Assembly (NCBI GenBank): GCA_945876385.1
Contig: CAMCNU010000003.1
Location: forward strand, 1-64,000
Source: an uncultured Veillonellaceae bacterium
GTDB lineage: Bacteria; Bacillota; Negativicutes; Veillonellales; Negativicoccaceae
Direction of reading: 5' to 3'
Length of the DNA stretch: 64,000 bases
Below, piece after piece: positions 12,374-61,914 of this stretch. The notes under the pieces were generated by a model. The model did no database searches. It saw only the letters and a list, made by a program, of their open reading frames with translations, and was not told the DNA's origin. Position 1 is the first letter of the stretch; each line of letters begins with the position of its first letter. A program made the translations under genes and the position numbers.

Positions 12374-13636
12374 ATGTCACCTGCAATTACATGTTTAATC
12401 GTGCTGGTCATTGTCGCGGTACTTTTCATCACCGAAATCATTCCGCTCGCCGTGACCGCCATCATGGCCGCAATGGCCTGCGGACTGCTCGGACTGATTC
12501 CGATGCACGAAGTGTTTCTGGGGCTGGCCGATGATACCGTCGTCCTGTTCGGCGGGATGTTCATCGTCGGCGCGTCAATGTTCCACACAGGTCTGGCGCA
12601 GCGTATCGGTGCGGCTGTCGTCCGTGCCTGCGGCACCGGCGAAAACAAGCTGATGCTCGGCGTCATGACAATTGCGGCGGCGCTCTCGTCGGTATTGTCC
12701 AACACCGGCACGTGTGCCTGCCTCATTCCTGTCGTCAAGGGTATTTGTGCCAAAGCGCACATCTCTTGCTCCCGACAATTATTGCCGCTCGCTTATGCCT
12801 GCGGTTTGGGCGGCACGATTACGCTCATCGGCACACCGCCGAACATCATCGCCAATGTCGCCTTGAAAACAGCCGGCATGGAAGAGTTACAATTCGGGTT
12901 CTTTGAATATGCTTGGCTCGGTATCCCGATTACCGTCGCGGGTATCCTCTACATGATGCTGGTCGGCAAGTATCTCTTGCCCAACGAAAAGCGCGATGTC
13001 CCGGAAGAAGTCACCAACGACGACGAGCCGGCTACCTGCGGCACCATTCGCCGCTGGATTTGCGGCCTCATTTTGGCGGCCGTCGTGGTCTCCATGGCCT
13101 TGGGGTTGCCGCTGCATATGGTCGCTATCGCCGGCGCGATTGCCTGCGTCTTGACACGCTGCATCACCGAAAAAGCCGCCTATGCGTCGATTGACTGGAT
13201 GACGATTTTCCTCTTTGCGGGCATGATTCCGCTCGCCACCGCGATGAACACCTCCGGCGCCGGCAAGTTGATTGCCGACAACGTGATTTCGTGGATGGGC
13301 GGATCGCCGTCGGTCTATCTCGTCACCGTCGTGCTCTTCCTGATTGCGGTCACCTTGACGCAGTTCATGTCCAACACCGCCTCCAAAGCCCTGCTTTGTC
13401 CGGTCGGGATTGCCATTGCCGCCGATCTCGGTGCCAATCCGCAAGCCGTCCTCATGGCGATTTTGATTGCGTCGTCCTGCGCCTTTGCCAGCCCTGTCGG
13501 CACACCGCCGAACACGTTGGTACTCGGCCCGGGGCACTATCGGTTCATGGATTACCTCAAATGCGGTACCGGTCTGGTGCTCGTTTGCCTCTTGGTATCC
13601 TGCATCGTCATTCCGGTGGTATGGCCGTATTACTGA
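12374..13636 (+). CDS. DASS (SLC13) family anion/dicarboxylate transporter
   Basis: 420 residues with about eleven hydrophobic segments. Two substrate/Na+ motifs typical of the family are visible: SNTGTCACLIPV in the N-terminal half and SNTASKALLCP in the C-terminal half, each near a GTPPN motif (IGTPPNIIAN and VGTPPNTLVLGPG). It would import succinate or another di- or tricarboxylate with Na+. It is a diverged relative of the three carriers at 15-23 kb but is on the other strand, has no decarboxylase partner gene, and lies beside a LysR regulator. AAGGAAGTGGATT precedes the ATG. Confidence 0.92.
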   Translation: MSPAITCLIVLVIVAVLFITEIIPLAVTAIMAAMACGLLGLIPMHEVFLGLADDTVVLFGGMFIVGASMFHTGLAQRIGAAVVRACGTGENKLMLGVMTIAAALSSVLSNTGTCACLIPVVKGICAKAHISCSRQLLPLAYACGLGGTITLIGTPPNIIANVALKTAGMEELQFGFFEYAWLGIPITVAGILYMMLVGKYLLPNEKRDVPEEVTNDDEPATCGTIRRWICGLILAAVVVSMALGLPLHMVAIAGAIACVLTRCITEKAAYASIDWMTIFLFAGMIPLATAMNTSGAGKLIADNVISWMGGSPSVYLVTVVLFLIAVTLTQFMSNTASKALLCPVGIAIAADLGANPQAVLMAILIASSCAFASPVGTPPNTLVLGPGHYRFMDYLKCGTGLVLVCLLVSCIVIPVVWPYY

Positions 13637-16387: not shown

Positions 16388-17509
16388 TCAGCCGACTGCC
16401 CCAAGCATCGCGAGCATCGTGCCGGCGGCTACCGCCGTACCGATGACACCGGCCACGTTCGGGCCCATCGCGTGCATCAAGAGGAAGTTTGCCGGGTTGG
16501 CTTTCGAGCCGACGACCTGCGATACGCGAGCCGCCATCGGTACTGCCGAGACACCGGCCGAACCGATCAACGGGTTCGTCTTGCCGTCAATCATCAGCAT
16601 AATCTGACCGAAGATAACACCGCCGGCCGTACCGAAGATGAAGGCTACCAAGCCCAAGCCGATGATTTCCAGCGTCTGCAAGTTGAGGAAGCTTTCCGCC
16701 GACATCGTGCAGCCCGTGCCCAATGCCAGGAAAATCGTGACCGTGTTCATCATCGCGTTTTGTGCCGTATCCGACAACCGCGCGGTGACGCCCGATTCGT
16801 TAATCAAGTTACCGAACATCAGCATCCCCAAGAGTGCCGTAATCGACGGCAAGAGCAAGCTGATGAAAATCGTCGCCGCAATCGGGAATACGACTTTTTC
16901 AAAGTGCGAAACCGGGCGCAGCTGTTCCATGACGATTTGACGTTGTTTCTTCGTCGTGAACAGCATCATGACCGGCGGCTGAATGAGCGGTACCAGGGAC
17001 ATGTAGGAATACGCTGCAACCGCAATCGCCCCCAACAGTTCCGGCGCCAATTTCGCCGCGAGGTAAATCGAGGTCGGGCCGTCCGCGCCGCCGATGATAC
17101 CGATAGCGGCCGCCTGCGGAGCCGTAAAGCCCAGGAACATCGCGCCGCCCAAGGCAACGAAGACGCCGATCTGCGCCGCCGCGCCCAAGAGAAGCGTTTT
17201 CGGGTTCGCCAGCAGCGGACCGAAGTCCGTCATCGCACCGACACCCATGAAAATCAACGGGGGGAAGATTTCCTGACTGATGCCTAAGCCGATCAGATGG
17301 AATACCCCTTCTTCAAAACCGTTCTTCGGCAAGTTTGCCAAGATACAACCGAACGCAATCGGTCCGAGCAACAACGGCTCGAATTCCTTGACAAATGCCA
17401 AGTACAACAACAGGAGTCCCACAATAATCATCAAGAGATGACCCCATGTGAAGACGATCATGCCGCTATCATGCCATACCGAGTTAATGGCCACGATAAA
17501 ATCTTGCAT
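16388..17509 (-). CDS. mmdB: Na+-pumping decarboxylase beta subunit, copy 1
   Basis: 373 residues, the size of methylmalonyl-CoA/oxaloacetate decarboxylase beta subunits, with about nine to eleven membrane helices. [12 protein letters not shown] carries the Asp (residue 143) that corresponds to the essential intramembrane Asp of Oad[19 protein letters not shown] near the C-terminus is the second conserved helix, with Thr where OadB has Ser. It couples decarboxylation of the carboxybiotin carrier to Na+ export. ATG 17509 is chosen by alignment with copy 2. About 620 bases appear identical to copies 2 and 3. The soluble partners lie at 27-30 kb. Confidence 0.93.
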
Positions 17510-17972
17510 GTCTTTCAATTCCCCTTTCATCACAACGTTTCCGGTCGGCGCAGATACTCGCCCGATGTCGGCTCTTAGTCCGCTCCACCGCGCACGATGA
17601 ATCGGATGTCCCCACGCGAAGCCTTCTTCGCCCAGCCGCCACCGCATGTCGCCATGCTGCGATACCGGTACGACGCCCTTGCGCCTTGTGTACCGTCTGC
17701 CGCTAACGAACCGTGTCCGTTTTGCTGCCGCCGAAACTCCGACAATAGAGGTCTACCCCACCTGCTATCGCCCCATGTCGTCAGAAACAATCGCTTTTGC
17801 TGCTTCGGCAGCTGTGTTGACGCTGTCTTTACCCATCAGCGTCAACACCCGCTTTCGCCGCACTTCACGATGATCCCCATCATCCTCAAGTGTCCCACCG
17901 GCGAGTTACCGTTGCTGCCCCGAAACATGTATACATTACTGTATTTTTATGCAAATCACGGTTGTCTATTGA
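17510..17972 (-). promoter_or_regulatory. Structured 5' leader of beta/DASS operon 1
   Basis: A leader of about 460 bases without a credible gene. It contains an 11-bp hairpin at 17814-17848 (loop with GGGTAAAGA on the minus strand), an ATGGGGAT hairpin at 17869-17884 inside a longer stem, and several other inverted repeats. The first two have counterparts in the leader of operon 2. Confidence 0.6.
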
Positions 17973-17979
17973 CATCTTT

Positions 17980-18008
17980 ATTATGCATTTTTGTACGCGG
18001 TTTGTCAA
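17980..18008 (-). promoter_or_regulatory. Promoter of beta/DASS operon 1
   Basis: Minus strand TTGACA (18008-18003), 17 bases, CATAAT (17985-17980). Confidence 0.85.
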
Positions 18009-18261: not shown

Positions 18262-19539
18262 TCACGGGAAGAACGGCCAGATAATCGGAATGATAATCAT
18301 GCTGGTGATAAATCCGACGATACAGAGCGGAATACCCACTTTCAGATAATCATTGAACGAGTATTGCCCCGGTCCGAGTACCAACGTGTTCGGCGGTGTC
18401 GCGACCGGCGTGGCAAATGCAGCCGATGCGGCAATCGCGATGCACATCAGGACGGCTTTCGGATCGGCCCCGATAGCCTGCGCCATCGAGATACCCAGCG
18501 GTGCCAAGAGCGCCGCCGTCGCCGTGTTGTTCATGAACTGCGTCATGATGTTGCTCAAGAGATACATAACCGCCGCAATCACGAGCGGGTTCGGATGGTC
18601 CCCGAGCAGTCCGACGACCGAGTGCGCAATCAGCGCGCCCGCGCCCGATTTGTCAAGCGCCGTGGCAATCGGCATCATGCCGGCAAACAGGAAAATCGTA
18701 ACCCAGTCAATCGAGGCATACGCCTGTTTTTCCGTCATACAACCGGTCAGTACCGCGACAATCGCGCCGATGATGGCCGCTGTCGTGAGCGATACGCCGA
18801 GCTCTTTCGAGAAAATCATGACCAGTACGACACCGACCAAAATCAAGAGCGAAATCATCTTTTTCGCTTTGCTCTGTTTGACCTGTGAAGCGTCGACTTC
18901 CTGCTCCACTTCCACCGAATCGTCGATGTCATGTTTCGGGAGCAACTTCTTGCCGACAGTGACAGTGAACAGTACCGATACGATGGAGAGCGGTACACCG
19001 ATCCAGGCGAATTCGAAGAATCCGAAGGTCGGAAGACCCGCCTGTTGCAGTGCGCCGGTTACGATGATGTTCGGCGGTGTGCCGACCATCGTAATCGCCC
19101 CGCCGACGTTGGCGGCAATCGCCATCGGCATCAGGAAACGCGAGCCTTTCAGTTTCGCGACCGCGCAGATACCGGTGACAACCGGAATCAAGGATGCGGC
19201 CGTACCGGTGTTCGACAAGACCGAGCTCATGATAATCGTAACGAGCATGACGCCGAACATCAGCTTCGTTTCGCTGGAACCGCACATCTTAACGACTTTG
19301 GCGCCGATTTCCTGCGCCATACCGGTGTGGAACAACGCCGCACCGATGACAAACATACCCGCGAACAAGACGACCGTCGAGTTCGACAGACCGGAAAAGA
19401 CCTGTTTTTCCGGAATCACGCCGAGCAATCCCAGCGCGATGGCTCCGCTCATCGACGTAATCGCCAGCGGAATAATCTCCGTGATAAAGAATATGGCCAC
19501 TACTGCCAATACACAGAGTGTAATAATTGCAGGACTCAT
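18262..19539 (-). CDS. DASS (SLC13) dicarboxylate transporter, copy 2
   Basis: 425 residues from ATG 19539, matched to the starts of copies 1 and 3; GGGGG lies about 10 bases upstream. Motifs and topology are as in copy 1, including NNT in place of the second SNT. It differs from copy 1 mainly in the loop near residues 205-225 (DSVEVEQEVDASQVKQSKAK) and at scattered hydrophobic positions, so substrate range may be shared while expression differs. It follows beta copy 2 by 43 bases. Confidence 0.92.
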   Translation of the reverse strand: MSPAIITLCVLAVVAIFFITEIIPLAITSMSGAIALGLLGVIPEKQVFSGLSNSTVVLFAGMFVIGAALFHTGMAQEIGAKVVKMCGSSETKLMFGVMLVTIIMSSVLSNTGTAASLIPVVTGICAVAKLKGSRFLMPMAIAANVGGAITMVGTPPNIIVTGALQQAGLPTFGFFEFAWIGVPLSIVSVLFTVTVGKKLLPKHDIDDSVEVEQEVDASQVKQSKAKKMISLLILVGVVLVMIFSKELGVSLTTAAIIGAIVAVLTGCMTEKQAYASIDWVTIFLFAGMMPIATALDKSGAGALIAHSVVGLLGDHPNPLVIAAVMYLLSNIMTQFMNNTATAALLAPLGISMAQAIGADPKAVLMCIAIAASAAFATPVATPPNTLVLGPGQYSFNDYLKVGIPLCIVGFITSMIIIPIIWPFFP

Positions 19540-19582
19540 ACCATCCAATCCCCCTTTTTCCTCTCACCCCTCAGGGTGTGAA

Positions 19583-20707
19583 TCAGTAACCTGCTGCACT
19601 GAGCATCGCGAGCATCGTGCCGGCCGCTACCGCCGTACCGATGACACCGGCCACGTTCGGGCCCATCGCGTGCATCAAGAGGAAGTTGGACGGATTGGCT
19701 TTCGAGCCGACGACCTGCGATACGCGGGCCGCCATCGGCACTGCCGAGACACCGGCCGAACCGATCAGCGGGTTCGTCTTGCCGTCTACCATCAGCATAA
19801 TCTGACCGAAGATGACGCCGGCCGCGGTGCCGAAGACAAAGGCCACCAAGCCCAAACCGATGATTTCCAGCGTCTGCAAGTTGAGGAAGCTTTCCGCCGA
19901 CATCGTGCAGCCCGTGCCCAATGCCAGGAAAATCGTGACCGTGTTCATCATCGCGTTTTGTGCCGTATCCGACAACCGCGCGGTGACGCCCGATTCGTTA
20001 ATCAAGTTACCGAACATCAGCATCCCCAAGAGTGCCGTAATCGACGGCAAGAGCAAGCTGATGAAAATCGTCGCCGCAATCGGGAATACGACTTTTTCAA
20101 AGTGCGAAACCGGGCGCAGCTGTTCCATGACGATTTGACGTTGTTTCTTCGTCGTGAACAGCATCATGACCGGCGGCTGAATGAGCGGTACCAGGGACAT
20201 GTAGGAATACGCTGCAACCGCAATCGCCCCCAACAGTTCCGGCGCCAATTTCGCCGCGAGGTAAATCGAGGTCGGGCCGTCCGCGCCGCCGATGATACCG
20301 ATAGCGGCCGCCTGCGGAGCCGTAAAGCCCAGGAACATCGCGCCGCCCAAGGCAACGAAGACGCCGATCTGCGCCGCCGCGCCCAAGAGAAGCGTTTTCG
20401 GGTTCGCCAGCAGCGGACCGAAGTCCGTCATCGCACCGACACCCATGAAAATCAACGGGGGGAAGATTTCCTGACTGATGCCTAAGCCGATCAGATGGAA
20501 TACCCCTTCTTCAAAACCGTTCTTCGGCAAGTTTGCCAAGATACAACCGAACGCAATCGGCCCGAGCAACAACGGCTCGAATTCCTTGACAAATGCCAAG
20601 TACAGCAACGCAAGTCCCACCACAATCATCAAGAGATGACCCCAAGTGAAGACAATCATGCCGCTGTCGTTCCAGACGGAACTGATTGCTACAAGAAAAT
20701 CTTGCAT
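19583..20707 (-). CDS. mmdB: Na+-pumping decarboxylase beta subunit, copy 2
   Basis: 374 residues, AAGGAG 6 bases before ATG 20707. Same family features as copy 1: the GGADGPTS helix, the [14 protein letters not shown] helix and the C-terminal [15 protein letters not shown] helix. The central two thirds look identical to copies 1 and 3 at DNA level, while the first 40 residues and the extreme C-terminus (SAAGY) differ. It is the only copy accompanied by a small delta-subunit gene, which lies 159 bases upstream. Confidence 0.93.
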
Positions 20708-20866
20708 GTTTTTCTCCTTCCATACCTACCAACCATCCGAATAACAGGTCACGTCCATATCCCGGCCGCGTTCGGTTCCGGTGAATGAAAATGAATAATA
20801 GCGATAAACGAGGGAACGTTTCCGCGTGCCCGACATGTACGTGACGTCGATGTGAAGCGGAATCGA

Positions 20867-20989
20867 TTACGATTCTTTTTTTGCCTTGGTCGGATCAATC
20901 ATATGAATGATTGTAATCAAGACCCACAGTGCCATCAATACGCCGAACACAATCGTCATATTAATCGACATAAACAGCCAAGGATTCAT
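20867..20989 (-). CDS. Orphan small delta subunit of the Na+-pumping decarboxylase (membrane anchor only)
   Basis: A 40-residue protein, [20 protein letters not shown] at the start and ending DPTKAKKES, with an AAAGGAG site before the ATG. It matches the N-terminus of MmdD at 27.8 kb almost residue for residue ([20 protein letters not shown]...[10 protein letters not shown]), but stops just after the single membrane helix and lacks the Ala/Pro linker and C-terminal domain that MmdD uses to bind its partners. It lies first in operon 2, before beta copy 2. Role inferred: alternative anchor or assembly factor for that beta subunit. Confidence 0.85.
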   Translation of the reverse strand: MNPWLFMSINMTIVFGVLMALWVLITIIHMIDPTKAKKES

Positions 20990-21239
20990 ATCTTTTCTCC
21001 TTTCCGCCACCTGTCCGTCGACAAGCAACCTACCCGAATTGCTTTTGTCGTTCGATTCATTCGACCGTCGAAGATAGGTTGATGCTCTCTTTACCCCGTA
21101 GCATCAACCGCTCTCAAATACCTGCCGCAGGTATCCCCATACACTGCGACTCCCCGTAGGTATTTTCCTGCAAGGAACGACGGGCATAATATGCTATGCA
21201 TATTTATGCACTCGGTAAATTGTTTCTAACGACACTTAG
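20990..21239 (-). promoter_or_regulatory. Structured 5' leader of operon 2
   Basis: About 245 bases from the inferred start to the delta-like gene. It holds the hairpin GGTTGATGCT/AGCATCAACC at 21077-21109 with loop GGGGTAAAGAG on the minus strand, a GTATGGGGATAC hairpin at 21131-21142, and a competing ATACCTG/CAGGTAT hairpin at 21119-21134. Stem and loop match the leader of operon 1 with base-pair substitutions. Confidence 0.6.
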
Positions 21240-21269
21240 ATTATGACATTGAACCCCTCGTTTTGTCAA
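21240..21269 (-). promoter_or_regulatory. Promoter of operon 2
   Basis: Minus strand TTGACA (21269-21264), 18 bases, CATAAT (21245-21240). Confidence 0.82.
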
Positions 21270-22967: not shown

Positions 22968-24089
22968 TCAGCCATGTGCGCCGAGCATCGCGAGCATCGT
23001 ACCGGCGGCTACCGCCGTACCGATGACACCGGCCACGTTCGGGCCCATCGCATGCATCAAGAGGAAGTTTGCCGGGTTGGCTTTCGAACCGACAATCTGC
23101 GATACGCGGGCCGCCATCGGCACTGCCGAGACACCGGCCGAACCGATCAGCGGGTTCGTCTTGCCGTCTACCATGTACATAATCTGACCGAAGATAACAC
23201 CGCCGGCCGTACCGAAGATGAAGGCAACCAATCCCAAACCGATGATTTCCAGCGTTTGAATGTTGAGGAAACTTTCCGCCGACATCGTGCAGCCTGTGCC
23301 CAATGCCAGGAAAATCGTGACCGTGTTCATCATCGCGTTTTGTGCCGTATCCGACAACCGCGCGGTGACGCCCGATTCGTTAATCAAGTTACCGAACATC
23401 AGCATCCCCAAGAGTGCCGTAATCGACGGCAAGAGCAAGCTGATGAAAATCGTCGCCGCAATCGGGAATACGACTTTTTCAAAGTGCGAAACCGGGCGCA
23501 GCTGTTCCATGACGATTTGACGTTGTTTCTTCGTCGTGAACAGCATCATGACCGGCGGCTGAATGAGCGGTACCAGGGACATGTAGGAATACGCTGCAAC
23601 CGCAATCGCCCCCAACAGTTCCGGCGCCAATTTCGCCGCGAGGTAAATCGAGGTCGGGCCGTCCGCGCCGCCGATGATACCGATAGCGGCCGCCTGCGGA
23701 GCCGTAAAGCCCAGGAACATCGCGCCGCCCAAGGCAACGAAGACGCCGATCTGCGCCGCCGCGCCCAAGAGAAGCGTTTTCGGGTTCGCCAGCAGCGGAC
23801 CGAAGTCCGTCATCGCACCGACACCCATGAAAATCAACGGGGGGAAGATTTCCTGACTGATGCCTAAGCCGATCAGATGGAATACCCCTTCTTCAAAACC
23901 GTTCTTCGGCAAGTTTGCCAACACACAGCCGAAGGCGATCGGTCCGAGCAAGAGCGGTTCAAACTCTTTCACGAACGCCAGGTACAACAGCACAAGCCCC
24001 ACCACAATCATCAAGAGATGACCCCAAGTGAAGACAATCATGCCGCTATCATGCCATACCGAATTGATGGCCACGATAAAACCTTGCAT
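22968..24089 (-). CDS. mmdB: Na+-pumping decarboxylase beta subunit, copy 3
   Basis: 373 residues from ATG 24089, preceded by AAAAGGAG. The reading frame happens to stay open for 267 bases upstream, but alignment with the other copies and the ribosome site fix the start. Conserved Asp helix GGADGPTS and C-terminal [15 protein letters not shown] are present. The block 23298-23922 is identical by eye to copies 1 and 2, while both ends of the gene carry many silent differences, so this copy shows the mosaic most clearly. Confidence 0.93.
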
Positions 24090-24655
24090 AATGACTCTCC
24101 TTTTCACATATTCAGCTTCGTACCAATCGATGAATGCGATGTCGCCTTGTCTTTCCCGACACCTTTGCTCTTCCCGTCCCACGGGGAACAGCAAGACACT
24201 GCTGTGAGTGCGGTTCATCCTACCGTCAGCTGCGGACGGCGTTTTGCGTCCAACCGCAAAACGTTCGGTTTGCCGACTTCCGTCGGCCCTTCGTCTTACG
24301 ACAGTCGCCTCCCCTGTCACCGCCGACGCGGTGCTTCCGTACAAGTTCCGCTCCATCGCAATCCGTCGGATGAAGTGCCCTTCATCCCGTTACCCTGCCG
24401 GACGGCTGCGCCTGTCGGTGCGACTGTACCCGTGCCGCCTCCCGAACAACCGTGTCGACCCATCCGTATCGGCGCTCCCCGCCGGTATCCCCACTCAGTC
24501 CGGCCGCTGCCGAGACTGCGTTCGGTATGGGTATTACGACCTTTCCGCCCCCACGGAAAGGGAACTGTTTGTTCCCGTCCGACCTCGGTCGGACTGTCGG
24601 ATGAGTGCATCGCCGATGGCGATGTGTTTCCGTCCAATATATTCAGGTATAACTT
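24090..24655 (-). promoter_or_regulatory. Long structured leader of operon 3
   Basis: About 566 bases between promoter and beta copy 3. Many perfect inverted repeats are visible on the minus strand, for example CATCGC/GCGATG, GTCCGACC/GGTCGGAC, CCTTTCCG/CGGAAAGG, GGATGAA/TTCATCC, GCCGAC/GTCGGC and CGTTTTGCG/CGCAAAACG. The GGGTAAAGA hairpin of operons 1 and 2 is not found. No credible gene. Confidence 0.55.
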
Positions 24656-24661
24656 AATTAA

Positions 24662-24689: not shown

Positions 24690-26291
24690 TAGCGAAAGAA
24701 TTTTTTTGCAATAAAAATTCCGATTTTCTATGAAGCTGCCCATCCCCGCGCCCGCTCCGCCCCAACCGCTCCACACCTCTCTACCGCATAACGCCGTGAA
24801 CCGGCAGCCACACGTAGTGCCCCCCGCACGGTACGGCCGTCTGCGTATCCGTGTGTCCTTTCCGGCAGCGGTGTCATCGCGGCACCGTCCATCACTCCGC
24901 GCCATCGTGCCTCCTTGATGGTGATTACTTCCGCGCCGCGCCTTCCTATCACTTCTGCGCAGGCTTGTCCACACCGGCATACCGCCTTGCCGCCTTTATC
25001 TATCCGTTGTGCAACACCGCTCGTCTGCAGCGACAACGCCCCGGCAACTGTTTGATTTTTCGCGCGCCGTCGACCTGCCGCACGGCCGCGACCATCCCAC
25101 ATTGCCTCGGTGATATCACTCCCGTGACCGTTCTCTCCCCGTATCGATTCTCCGTAACGTGCCCACCATATCGGCCAACGCCGCACGCTCCTGTTGCAGC
25201 GAGCGGCGTATCGTTTCTACACCGAGACGAAAATCCCCCGCATCATGGCGTGCCGTTCTCATCGCGATTCGCTCCCCCTCCATCCGTCCGCCCGGGCAAG
25301 CCGTACATGCCTGTCGGCAGCATGCGTTCCGCTCCGTCAGTACTGCATCGAATGTCGCTCGCTATCCGATTCGCCATACCCTCACGCGGCGTTACCGATG
25401 CGCGAAAAACAGCGCCGTCTCTGCGGGTGTCTGCCGCCGCGGTGTTTGATTTCCGCAACCTCACTTCGGCACGGCTTCCCGTCATCACCGCGCCCATGGC
25501 CGCGACACCCCGAAATGTCCCGACAGCACCGGCCGCTGATGCGCCGTCGCTCCTGCCGCTCGGCTCACCGCACATCTGCACCATTGATCATCACGATACG
25601 ATAATTGCCCGTACCGCATTCTCCGGGATCCCCCACACCGGGACGAACGGTACCTGCCGAGGCCGTTCTGTTTCGCACACATCCGTATCCCCTGCACGGA
25701 CAACCGCCTGTCCGACCGCAAGTATCATTCCTTTGTTTAACTTTTTACCTGTCGTCGGTCTTCCTCTACACATTTCCTCTTACCTCCTTCACTGTGACTC
25801 CCTCCCGCACACAACGCCTCTTGAATCATTAAAATCAGGCTTGTTTTTCTGTTTTTTCTCAATCGTCAACGACGTGGACTCTATTTTTGTTTTTCTCCCA
25901 AAATTCATCTTTTATTTTTGTTTTTGAGACAGCGCATACAGAGCATATGACTTGCATATAACAACACGCGTGTCATTGTTGCGTCATCTTTTTCTCAAAC
26001 ATGCCCTCAAATCGTTTTTTTCGGGTGTTTTTTAGAGTCCTTGGTATATTCTTGTGGAAGTTTTCATGAATTCTGTCGAATTGAAAATTTGCCCCCTTTT
26101 CTTGCTTTTCGTTTTCCGCAACAGCAGTCAAAACATGTCCGCGATTTCCCGTCATTGCGTTTCCGCCTCTGCACGTTTGATTGTTGTCTTCTGTCGCCAA
26201 GTTGCGCCGCGGCGAATCTCCCTGCCGCCCGCCGCGACAGCCGCCGCCACGCGCCCCGTTTTCTGCTTCGGCAGGCAATGCGTCAAAACGA
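24690..26291. other. 1.6-kb region without a recognisable gene, possibly decayed
   Basis: Only short, mostly Arg/Gly/Ala-rich frames. Some minus-strand frames do have good ribosome sites: ATG 25773 (AAGGAGG 9 bases upstream, 60 residues with MILAVGQAVVRAGD), and ATG 24914 (AAGGAGG 4 bases upstream). A 48-residue frame at 25262-25116 reads RLGVETIRRSLQQERAALAD, and a shift into the neighbouring frame continues with a W-x-G. This may be a decayed small-gene cluster; no function is assigned. Confidence 0.4.
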
Positions 26292-26320
26292 CAAAAAGAG
26301 CGGTATATTGCCGCTCTTTT
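26292..26320. terminator. Terminator-like hairpin
   Basis: AAAAGAGCGG ... CCGCTCTTTT, usable in both directions. No confirmed gene ends here, which suggests an unrecognised or lost transcription unit next to it. Confidence 0.6.
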
Positions 26321-26444
26321 CTCGCTTGACGGATTCCTCACAAAAATCCTGTGTTGCGCTAAATACCCCGTTTTCGCTACGCCTGTACCCCCCCGGTGTG
26401 CCGCATGCCGGCTGTATTGTTTGTACCCGACTTTGTGCCCGCCA

Positions 26445-26480
26445 ATAAAAAACGGCTTGCCGATGCAAGCCGTTTTCTTA
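26445..26480 (-). terminator. Terminator of the small membrane protein gene
   Basis: AACGGCTTGC-CGAT-GCAAGCCGTT stem with A6 and T tracts, overlapping the stop codon of the gene on the minus strand. Confidence 0.85.
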
Positions 26481-26768
26481 ATCCAGCAGAGAAGTGGTAA
26501 AAATAAACCAAGTGCAGAGTCCGATGACCGAGAGCATTGCCAAAAAAACACCGATTCCTTCGAGTGTTTTCGGGTACCCGTAGTGGAATTTCTCCCCCAA
26601 CAATCCGCGCCGTAAAAACCATGAAAATTTGGTTCGCTTCTGAAACCAGCGGGCTTTTCGTTCTTCACCGATAATCTCTGCCGTAACACCGAATACTATC
26701 AATGTCACAATAACGGTAATCAACAAGCGATACATCACCTGCTGATCACTCAACTGTGTCATTTCCAT
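26478..26768 (-). CDS. Small two-helix membrane protein, unknown function
   Basis: 96 residues from ATG 26768 (CAGGAG 9 bases upstream). Membrane helix 1 is around residues 13-32 (LLITVIVTLIVFGVTAEII), followed by a basic loop with ERKARWFQKRTKFSWFLRRG, and helix 2 at residues 72-90. It lies downstream of the methylmalonyl-CoA decarboxylase operon but is set apart by a terminator-like hairpin and 600 bases. It does not resemble MmdE or a gamma/delta subunit. Family not recognised; a helper of the decarboxylase is possible but unsupported. Confidence 0.75.
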   Translation of the reverse strand: MEMTQLSDQQVMYRLLITVIVTLIVFGVTAEIIGEERKARWFQKRTKFSWFLRRGLLGEKFHYGYPKTLEGIGVFLAMLSVIGLCTWFIFTTSLLD

Positions 26769-27391: not shown

Positions 27392-27784
27392 TTAGCCGAG
27401 AACGACCAGGTCGTCGCCGGCTTGTACCGTTGCGTTGGCCGCAACAATTACGTCTTTGACAGTTGCATCATGCGGAGCATAGATTTCGTTCGCCATTTTC
27501 ATCGCTTCCAATACGCAGAGGATGTCGCCTGCTTTGACAGCATCGCCTGCTTTGACAGCGACCGACAAAATCTTGCCCGGCATCGGGGCTTTGACAGTTT
27601 CAGCACCTGCCGGAGCTGCTGCTTTCGGAGCTGCTGCCGGAGCCGGTGCCGGTGCTGCCGCCGGAGCGGGAGCCGCTGCCGGAGCCGGAGCTGCTTTCGG
27701 AGCTGCAGCCGGAGCCACGCCGCCTACTTCATTTACTTCTACATCGTACACTTGACCGTTAACGGTTACGGAAAATTTTTTCAT
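27392..27784 (-). CDS. mmdC: Biotin carrier subunit of methylmalonyl-CoA decarboxylase (gamma)
   Basis: 130 residues, ATG 27784 with AGGAGG 7 bases upstream. The N-terminal segment ([16 protein letters not shown]) is followed by an Ala/Pro linker of about 35 residues and the biotinyl domain with [11 protein letters not shown], where the Lys of EAMKM is biotinylated. It carries CO2 from the carboxyltransferase MmdA to the membrane beta subunit. It is the last gene of the operon, where a beta gene would be expected but is missing. Confidence 0.96.
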
Positions 27785-27813
27785 TCTTGATCCTCCTAAA
27801 GTAAAATTCTGAA

Positions 27814-28146
27814 TCAGTACGTATCTACTGCCGAGATACGTGCGGCTGCAGTCCAACCGGTATTTTTGGCCGGCCGGATCGAGGCGACTTGACCGCTGCT
27901 ATACCCCATTGACATAATTGCTGCCGTAATGACGGCTACGACTTCATCTTGGCTCGTCGCAGCAGGTGCTGCTGCGGACGCCGAAGCCGGAGCTGCCGTT
28001 TTTACCGGTTCAGCAGATTTTTTTTTTGCCTTTGTCGGATCGATTGCGTGGATAATCACCATGAGCACCCACAGCGCAATCAGAACGCCAAAGACGATTG
28101 TCATGTTGATGGCCATAAACAGCCATGCATTCAGTTCACCTGACAT
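27814..28146 (-). CDS. mmdD: Delta subunit of methylmalonyl-CoA decarboxylase
   Basis: 110 residues. One N-terminal membrane helix ([20 protein letters not shown]), a DPTKAKKKS boundary, an Ala-rich linker, then a C-terminal domain ([15 protein letters not shown]...) that in known enzymes binds the alpha and gamma subunits to the membrane complex. The length is close to characterised MmdD. A separate MmdE, which resembles the C-terminal half of delta in Veillonella, is not found. It lies between mmdA and mmdC. Confidence 0.93.
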
Positions 28147-28207
28147 ACTCGCTTCCCATCCTCTCTTTGTGAATTTATATTACGTTGCGCATGCCTGAAG
28201 CATGAAA

Positions 28208-29737
28208 TCACAACGGAATATTCGCATGTTTTTTCGCAGGACGAGCTTCGCGTTTGCTTGCGAGCATGGCCAATGCGTTGATGACGTACGGCCGTGTTTC
28301 TTTCGGTTCGATGACCGCATCGACAAATCCACGTTCCGCCGCTTTGTACGGTGTCGCAAATTCTTCGACATATTCGGCCGTCTTTTGATCCTTGTCCGGA
28401 TCTTTCTTGAAGATAATGTTCGCAGCGCCTGCCGGTCCCATTACCGCAATTTCAGCCGTCGGCCATGCAAATACCTGGTCTGCTCCCAAGTCTTGCGAGC
28501 ACATTGCCAAGTACGATCCGCCGTATGCTTTACGCGTAATAACGGTGACCTTCGGTACCGTCGCTTCCGAGTAAGCAAAGAGCATCTTCGCACCGTGGCG
28601 AATGATACCGCCGTATTCCTGCTGTACGCCCGGCAAGAAACCCGGTACGTCAACGAAGTTTACGATCGGAATATTGAAGGCATCGCAGAAACGGATGAAA
28701 CGGCTGGATTTGTCCGAGGCATTGATATCCAAGCAGCCGGCCATGAATTTCGGCTGGTTGGCGATAATGCCGACCGTCTGTCCGTCCATACGGGCAAAGC
28801 ACGTGATGATGTTTTTCGCATAGTGCGCCAAGACATCATAGAATTCGCCGTTGTCGACAACCGATTTGATGACGTCGTACATATCGTACGCCGCGTTCGA
28901 GTTGTCCGGAAGCAAGGTGTTCAGACCTTCATCCATCCGCAACGGATCATCACCGGTATCCACAATCGGGGCTTCTTCCATGTTGTTGCTCGGCAAGAAG
29001 CTCAAGAGGTAACGAATCTGGTTCAAGCAGTCTTCATCGTTTTCCGCAATGAAGTGCGATACGCCGGAAACGCTGTTGTGCGTCATTGCGCCGCCGAGCT
29101 GTTCCGCCGTGACGTCTTCACCGGTAACCGATTTGACAACCAACGGACCCGTGATAAACATTTGGCTGGTATTCTTGACCATGTAGATGAAGTCCGTCAA
29201 CGCCGGCGAGTATACCGCGCCGCCTGCCGACGGTCCCATGATCGCCGAAATCTGCGGAATGACACCGGACGAAATCGTATTTTCGAAGAAAATACGGCCA
29301 TAGCCGGCCAATGCGTCAACCGCTTCCTGGATACGTGCGCCGCCGGAATCGTTCAAGCCGACACAGGGTGCGCCCATTTTCAGAGCCAGTTGGAGTACGC
29401 GCACGATTTTGCTCGCGTGCATTTCACCGAGCGAACCGCCTTCGACGGTGAAGTCCTGCGCGAACGCATAGACCAATTTGCCGTCTACCGTACCGTAACC
29501 GGTGACAACGCCTTCACCCGGCAAGTCTTTCTTGTCCTGTCCGAAGTTGACGCAGCGATGTTTGACCAAAGCGCCGATTTCGACAAAGGAGCCGTCATCA
29601 AACAACTGTGCCAAACGTTCACGGGCAGTCATTTTGCCTTTAGCGTGTTGTTTTTCAATCCGCTTTTCGCCGCCACCCATACGGACATGTTCCATATTTT
29701 TGTGGAGCAATTCAATCTTCTGTTGGTTTACAGACAT
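28208..29737 (-). CDS. mmdA: Methylmalonyl-CoA decarboxylase alpha subunit (carboxyltransferase)
   Basis: 509 residues from ATG 29737 (GGAGGTG 4 bases upstream), matching the usual MmdA length. It has the two crotonase-like halves of acyl-CoA carboxyltransferases: [13 protein letters not shown]-type start, [32 protein letters not shown] and, in the second half, [24 protein letters not shown] and [11 protein letters not shown]. It moves the carboxyl group of (S)-methylmalonyl-CoA to the biotin of MmdC. Next to mce and mmdD. Confidence 0.96.
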
Positions 29738-29771
29738 TCTCACACCTCCGATAATTGTCCCCCACAAGGGG

Positions 29772-61692: not shown

Positions 61693-61858
61693 GCGACCGA
61701 CTTGCCGGCAGAAACCGATTATGACAACCTCCCGAGTAACCTCGTGGCACATGAAAGGATTCGCTTACTGCTGCTTCCTCTCGGACCTGACAGGGTTCAC
61801 AAACTTCCATTGCACAAGCCCCGAAAGGTTGCCATAAGCGACCTCTGCCGGTCGCGGT
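61690..61858 (-). ncRNA. ffs: Signal recognition particle RNA (4.5S/scRNA)
   Basis: On the minus strand the apical SRP signature is clear: TGTGAACCCTGTCAGGTCC, then GAGAGGAAGCAGCAGTAAG, with the long hairpin closed by GGCAACCT / AGGTTGTC and an outer stem GCGACCGGCAGA / TCTGCCGG...TCGGTCGC. About 170 bases, shorter than the 270-base Bacillus type. Upstream of dnaX, as in Bacillus. Its ends are inferred from the promoter and terminator. Confidence 0.93.
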
Positions 61859-61864
61859 ATGTTT

Positions 61865-61893
61865 ATTATACAATACACGGTCGGGAAGCGCAA
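61865..61893 (-). promoter_or_regulatory. Promoter of the SRP RNA gene
   Basis: Minus strand TTGCGC (61893-61888), 17 bases, TATAAT (61870-61865). Confidence 0.85.
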
Positions 61894-61914
61894 GCACCCG
61901 ACCGCATCCGACTC

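Follow-up and report, generated by a model that had tools for sequence, protein, structure and literature searches.

Reactions that yield as little as about 30 kJ/mol can sustain anaerobes equipped with biotin-dependent decarboxylase pumps. The membrane part of these pumps includes a small subunit (delta in MmdD and GcdD, gamma in OadG; PF04277, NF047902, TIGR01195) characterized by an N-terminal membrane helix and a DPTK junction. In glutaconyl-CoA decarboxylase, delta starts with a helix at its N-terminus, runs on through an Ala/Pro linker, and is linked to alpha by its C-terminal part (PMC7145394). Cryo-EM of the Salmonella oxaloacetate decarboxylase showed the homologous gamma (OadG), in its visible part, as a helix of ~40 amino acids (residues 2-43) bound to beta in a beta3-gamma3 complex, with one gamma per beta; the helix touches both the scaffold and the core domains of beta and remains bound in the purified complex, and when residues 61-84 are removed from gamma, beta binding stays intact while alpha binding is severely reduced (PMC7274780). 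Within this enzyme family Veillonella also has a further, incomplete copy of delta, the epsilon subunit MmdE (NF047904), which resembles only the C-terminal part of delta (the model aligns with MmdD residues 57-103).

Here we examine a 40-residue protein, called mini-delta below, that is the mirror image of MmdE: it has the helix and the DPTK junction and is encoded beside mmdB, but it lacks the Ala/Pro linker and the C-terminal alpha-docking segment of its homologs MmdD, GcdD and OadG (40 amino acids against 110). It is tail-less like the engineered Salmonella gamma-delta-CT, which kept beta binding and lost alpha (PMC7274780); that protein is a laboratory truncation of residues 61-84, whereas mini-delta is natural, shorter (it has no linker), separately encoded and conserved. 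By examining its locus, its distribution among the Negativicutes, and its pattern of substitution, we hypothesize that mini-delta is probably a helix-only delta belonging to the Na+-translocating methylmalonyl-CoA decarboxylase, where it would take the place of delta on beta but leave alpha undocked; its translation, its binding to MmdB and its part in setting subunit ratios are what we infer.

The short gene and its operon

The gene lies in the second of three beta-transporter operons in the window (the whole stretch of 64,000 nt that was analysed), among the following features, all on the minus strand:

20989..20867, minus: helix-only delta gene (mini-delta, an mmdD N-terminal paralogue), 123 nt, 40 aa, ATG start, TAA stop
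21005-20997, minus: Shine-Dalgarno sequence GGAAAGGAG, 7 nt 5' of the mini-delta ATG
21269-21240, minus: sigma-70-like promoter of operon 2, TTGACA-18-CATAAT with extended -10 TG (pattern scan, 11/12 matches)
21608-21582, minus: terminator-like intrinsic hairpin closing the preceding operon 3 (pattern scan, 12 pairs then a T run)
20990..21232, minus: long structured 5' leader of operon 2 (fold z-score -5.2; start inferred from the promoter)
20708..20866, minus: 159-nt spacer from mini-delta to beta2, with no remnant of an MmdD tail
19583..20707, minus: mmdB copy 2 (beta, carboxybiotin decarboxylase, Na+ pump; PF03977, TIGR01109), ribosome site AAGGAG at 20719-20714
18262..19548, minus: DASS-family dicarboxylate transporter of operon 2 (Pfam CitMHS and Na_sulph_symp; the operon 3 paralogue matches TIGR00785)
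27814..28146, minus: full-length mmdD (delta) with helix, Ala/Pro linker and C-terminal alpha-docking part (OAD_gamma 57 bits, MmdD model 116 bits)
28208..29767, minus: mmdA (alpha, carboxyltransferase; TIGR01117), single copy by its single genome match
27392..27856, minus: mmdC (gamma, biotin carrier; Biotin_lipoyl), likely start at the ATG at 27784
16388..17509, minus: mmdB copy 1 (operon 1), without mini-delta upstream
22968..24089, minus: mmdB copy 3 (operon 3), without mini-delta upstream

The product scores 28.5 bits against Pfam OAD_gamma (PF04277), above the gathering score of 27, in a borderline match (a six-frame scan of the genome gave 26.3 at the same place) that is confined to profile positions 2-39 of 76. 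Its 40 residues match the N-terminus of the full MmdD, whose gene lies ~7 kb off (28146..27814), with 80% identity; 88/120 nucleotides are identical between the two genes, and a search of the whole 1.5-Mb genome with mini-delta matched only its own site and the full mmdD. The invariant N, VF, VL, L and DPTK columns of MmdD are shared, as is the N-terminal membrane helix with its DPT(K) junction; the C-terminal alpha-docking segment is absent, the stop codon following directly after DPTKAKKES. The 40 residues thus retained correspond to the beta-bound stretch of OadG. Against the MmdD model (NF047902), whose cut-off of 150 bits is set for full-length delta, mini-delta scores 57 bits over model positions 8-46 of 112, and the MmdE model (NF047904) gave no match at E up to 1. 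By family rules, then, mini-delta is a member of the OAD_gamma superfamily, yet not an MmdD equivalog. The initial annotation of this locus had described a gene for just the MmdD helix and DPTKAKK junction, preceded by a good ribosome site, and both points hold; it had also called the gene too short for normal ORF calling, but 123 nt, if short, is not under the usual limits of gene finders.

Operon 2 runs from mini-delta through mmdB2 to the DASS transporter, and mini-delta is its first gene, as had been proposed, because the promoter at 21269-21240 and the terminator at 21608-21582 lie upstream. Operons 1 and 3 have promoters of their own (18008-17980 and 24689-24662, respectively) and, again as proposed, lack the short gene: no delta-like frame was found upstream of their betas. 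A beta gene accordingly needs no mini-delta in cis, since only one of the three operons has one. The three betas share 94-96% of their DNA and about 96-98% of their protein sequence, with residues 57 to 276 identical, so any helix that binds one of them should bind all three, and a role in assembling beta copy 2 alone, as had been suggested, is for this reason unlikely. In this genome mmdA-D-C stands without an adjacent beta, followed by the three beta-transporter operons in tandem. We also considered a collapsed duplicate of D-C-B and rejected it, as a tblastn search of MmdD over the stretch matched the N-terminal part only, with no tail remnant.

An mmdA-D-C cluster without a neighbouring beta, like that of the window (27392-29767, minus), is also seen in Dialister-like genomes (L160, L161), unlike in Negativicoccus and Veillonella. 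The leaders of all three beta-transporter operons are long (17510-17980, 20990-21240 and 24090-24660, minus; 250-570 nt) and fold far above shuffled sequences (z -4.9 to -5.3), with almost no likeness to one another and no Rfam family; a search of Rfam for a riboswitch that might account for the operon 2 leader likewise found no family.

Short delta genes in related genomes

Short delta genes were sought in 61 genomes of the order, class-wide in 380 genomes of Negativicutes, and in 59 genomes in a family-level search. Negativicoccus massiliensis, the nearest named relative (beta 91%), and the family relatives G001-G003 have the order mmdA-D-C-B-transporter, without the short gene (N. massiliensis locus L006). 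Absence from the three nearest relatives compared, and from operons 1 and 3, would suit a dead duplicate, that is, an mmdD 5' end that was copied ahead of beta2 and is now drifting. Against this, other families keep an equivalent short gene in the same position: of the 380 Negativicutes genomes, about two dozen, from four families, have a helix-only delta (about 39-46 aa, usually ending in DPTK and a few Lys), which usually stands just upstream of an mmdB. The check proposed in the initial annotation, a search for the same short gene upstream of mmdB in related genomes, thus returned a conserved gene, and the term "orphan" used there does not fit, similar helix-only genes preceding mmdB in many relatives.

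Among the 61 genomes of the order, short-frame matches fall in a Dialister-like genus; the class-wide and family-level searches added an Acidaminococcaceae-like family (f5), with a short delta in 15 genomes as judged by open-frame length, and f24. We read 13 short genes closely (12 Dialister-like and the window copy): each opens with a Met shortly ahead of the helix, closes with DPTK followed mostly by Lys, and has a ribosome-site-like stretch upstream. In the 12 Dialister-like cases beta starts 21-41 nt downstream, and across relatives the spacer between short delta and beta ranges from 21 to 230 nt. Such a range is too loose for translational coupling, and with the peptide conserved while its nucleotides change, it makes it scarcely credible that the frame is a leader ORF whose translation mainly couples or controls that of beta2, the peptide itself being immaterial, even if an upstream frame behind a long structured leader has the look of one.

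The arrangements are diverse. One genome (G006) carries six tandem units of transporter, short delta and beta, along with a separate mmdA-D-C without beta; elsewhere we found mmdA-D-C-B followed by short delta-B (L146), repeats of short delta-B (L144, L145, L148), repeats of short delta-D-B-transporter (L154, L155), and A-short delta-D-C-B (L150). In three genomes (G338, G298, G062) mini-delta adjoins a full delta gene. Two of the six G006 units (contig C1, about 65-86 kb; L126, L127) are nearly identical, a long intergenic leader precedes each unit, and most share AAAGGAGGATAGCAGGTT shortly 5' of the transporter. At one locus (L131 8384-9376; G010 C7) the beta after the short delta matches in separate pieces only and looks decaying or misassembled. 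A 63-aa frame in G042 proved to be a frameshifted full MmdD and was left out of the count; this full mmdD, in a Veillonella-like genome (contig C18; L133 3659-4143), appears to be split into two overlapping frames by an assembly error or a real mutation, and is followed by a separate C-terminal-only, MmdE-like copy. The phage records that we searched held no match to mini-delta.

In nucleotides the window copy shares 71% of the core with its own MmdD and 70% with other short genes, and is thus about equally near to both. The Dialister-like short genes cluster as a group of their own, and those of f5 often lie nearer to short genes of other genomes than to the MmdD of the same genome. Either a single origin of the short gene or several would suit these comparisons.

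Selection on the short gene

Within groups of short genes pN/pS is 0.10-0.13 amid high synonymous divergence; the helix part of the full MmdD of Veillonella gives a similar 0.145. The window gene differs from its own mmdD at 21/33 third positions, and 27/33 core residues are kept; when neutral drift was simulated to equal third-position divergence, 0/5000 runs reached this conservation and the mean was 7.6 residues kept, in a simple mutation model with one copy drifting, with which a very recent loss of the window gene would still be compatible. Three of the six core differences moreover look derived on the MmdD side, the outgroups agreeing better with Pro3, Thr26 and, arguably, Met30 of mini-delta. 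Because residues are kept amid near-saturated synonymous change and because these replacements fall on the MmdD side, we conclude that mini-delta is a selected protein. An open frame would say little by itself, as the copied 5' end of a gene, ribosome site included, may by chance escape stop codons for a while (43% of the neutral simulations remained free of stops); yet the dead duplicate is made extremely improbable by the retained residues, the MmdD-side replacements and the conserved position just upstream of mmdB in relatives, and the marks of a pseudogene (pN/pS near 1, a broken frame) are absent. Judged by these substitution patterns, the short genes are under strong purifying selection (pN/pS about 0.1). 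Their recurrence beside extra pump copies in many relatives makes mini-delta look like a genuine, previously unnamed part of the pump.

Beta copy number and the proposed role

Counting mmdB at E <= 1e-100 and short delta as frames of at most 80 aa, we found a short delta in 16/19 genomes with at least two mmdB and in 4/57 with one (Fisher p 4e-10, which is only a guide: the genomes are not phylogenetically independent, and fragmented draft contigs may hide copies). Within f5 the figures are 12/13 for multi-beta genomes and 3/27 for those with one beta. The three multi-beta genomes without a short delta are G002, G003 and G104. Many genomes have as many short genes as they have betas in addition to that of the main operon (for example, 4/3, 3/2, 2/1), and alpha is single in multi-beta genomes with a short delta where it was sought and found.

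We propose that the mini-delta protein would cross the membrane once, by its N-terminal helix, and end in a short, Lys-rich stretch in the cytoplasm, and that this helix would pack on beta where the MmdD helix normally sits, one per beta (compare structure 6IWW). With no Ala/Pro linker and no C-terminal segment, it would not dock the carboxyltransferase alpha. Encoded together with an extra beta, it would fill or stabilise delta sites in the beta trimers and bring in no further tails for docking alpha, so that a cell could run many beta pumps per alpha, with beta number and alpha docking set independently. The trimers may be mixed (delta and mini-delta), or alpha-free and served by the mobile biotin carrier MmdC. 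Of the roles offered in the initial annotation, that of an alternative beta-bound helix, unable to dock alpha, is the one best supported, by homology to OadG and by the behaviour of gamma-delta-CT.

Competition with full MmdD for beta, which the initial annotation had also offered, may be a side effect. Taken as the main function, it would make mini-delta a negative control that cuts alpha loading when operon 2 is induced, and the same binding logic implies it. In G338, G298 and G062, where a full delta gene adjoins the short one, the tail-less helix would dilute docking, which is the natural reading there; the adjoining full delta also means that the filling of sites left empty when beta is in excess accounts for these three genomes only in part. 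Most copies, by contrast, go with extra beta genes and not with a full delta, so that beta sites are added along with the helix, and we consider a chiefly competitive role rather unlikely. A chaperone that is made first, aids the folding, insertion or trimerisation of beta, and does not stay as a lasting subunit would agree with the place of mini-delta before beta in the operon and with the contacts of the homologous gamma helix to both the scaffold and core domains. We regard it as very unlikely nonetheless: the sequence is that of a stable subunit, the homologous helix is still bound in the purified complex, and two of the three window betas have no copy in cis.

If the helix-only delta acts as proposed, a natural delta that lacks the tail and follows the copy number of beta would give a direct handle on alpha:beta stoichiometry. 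More tentatively, and with considerable doubt, Negativicutes living on succinate or other decarboxylations might generally use the helix-only delta to run alpha-free beta Na+ pumps, in which beta3 with mini-delta decarboxylates the carboxybiotin borne by mobile MmdC. The number of pumps would then no longer be tied to that of carboxyltransferases, and the arrangement may have had more than one origin. The helix-only and C-terminal-only (MmdE) versions, both natural, indicate that delta is modular.

Our searches of the open literature found nothing on mini-delta or a helix-only delta, and we provisionally regard a natural helix-only delta as an undescribed version of the known delta/gamma subunit family. 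In the libraries searched it is a small gene without a dedicated family model: in NCBIfam, the matches of the short proteins at E up to 1 were limited to MmdD, OadG and chance hits. The NCBI product name "OadG-related small transporter subunit" corresponded to no model matched and is absent from the open papers searched.

Other features of the window may be recorded here. Between a small conserved membrane-protein gene (26478-26765, minus) and the next beta operon lies a gene-poor stretch of 1.7-1.8 kb (24700-26470) with no convincing gene, and N. massiliensis has a gene-poor stretch at the equivalent position (L006 4731-6404). A fourth transporter gene, DASS-like as in the three operons, stands alone on the opposite strand (12374-13636, plus). 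A large bacterial signal recognition particle RNA is encoded at 61697-61911 (minus; Rfam RF01854, 102.6 bits).
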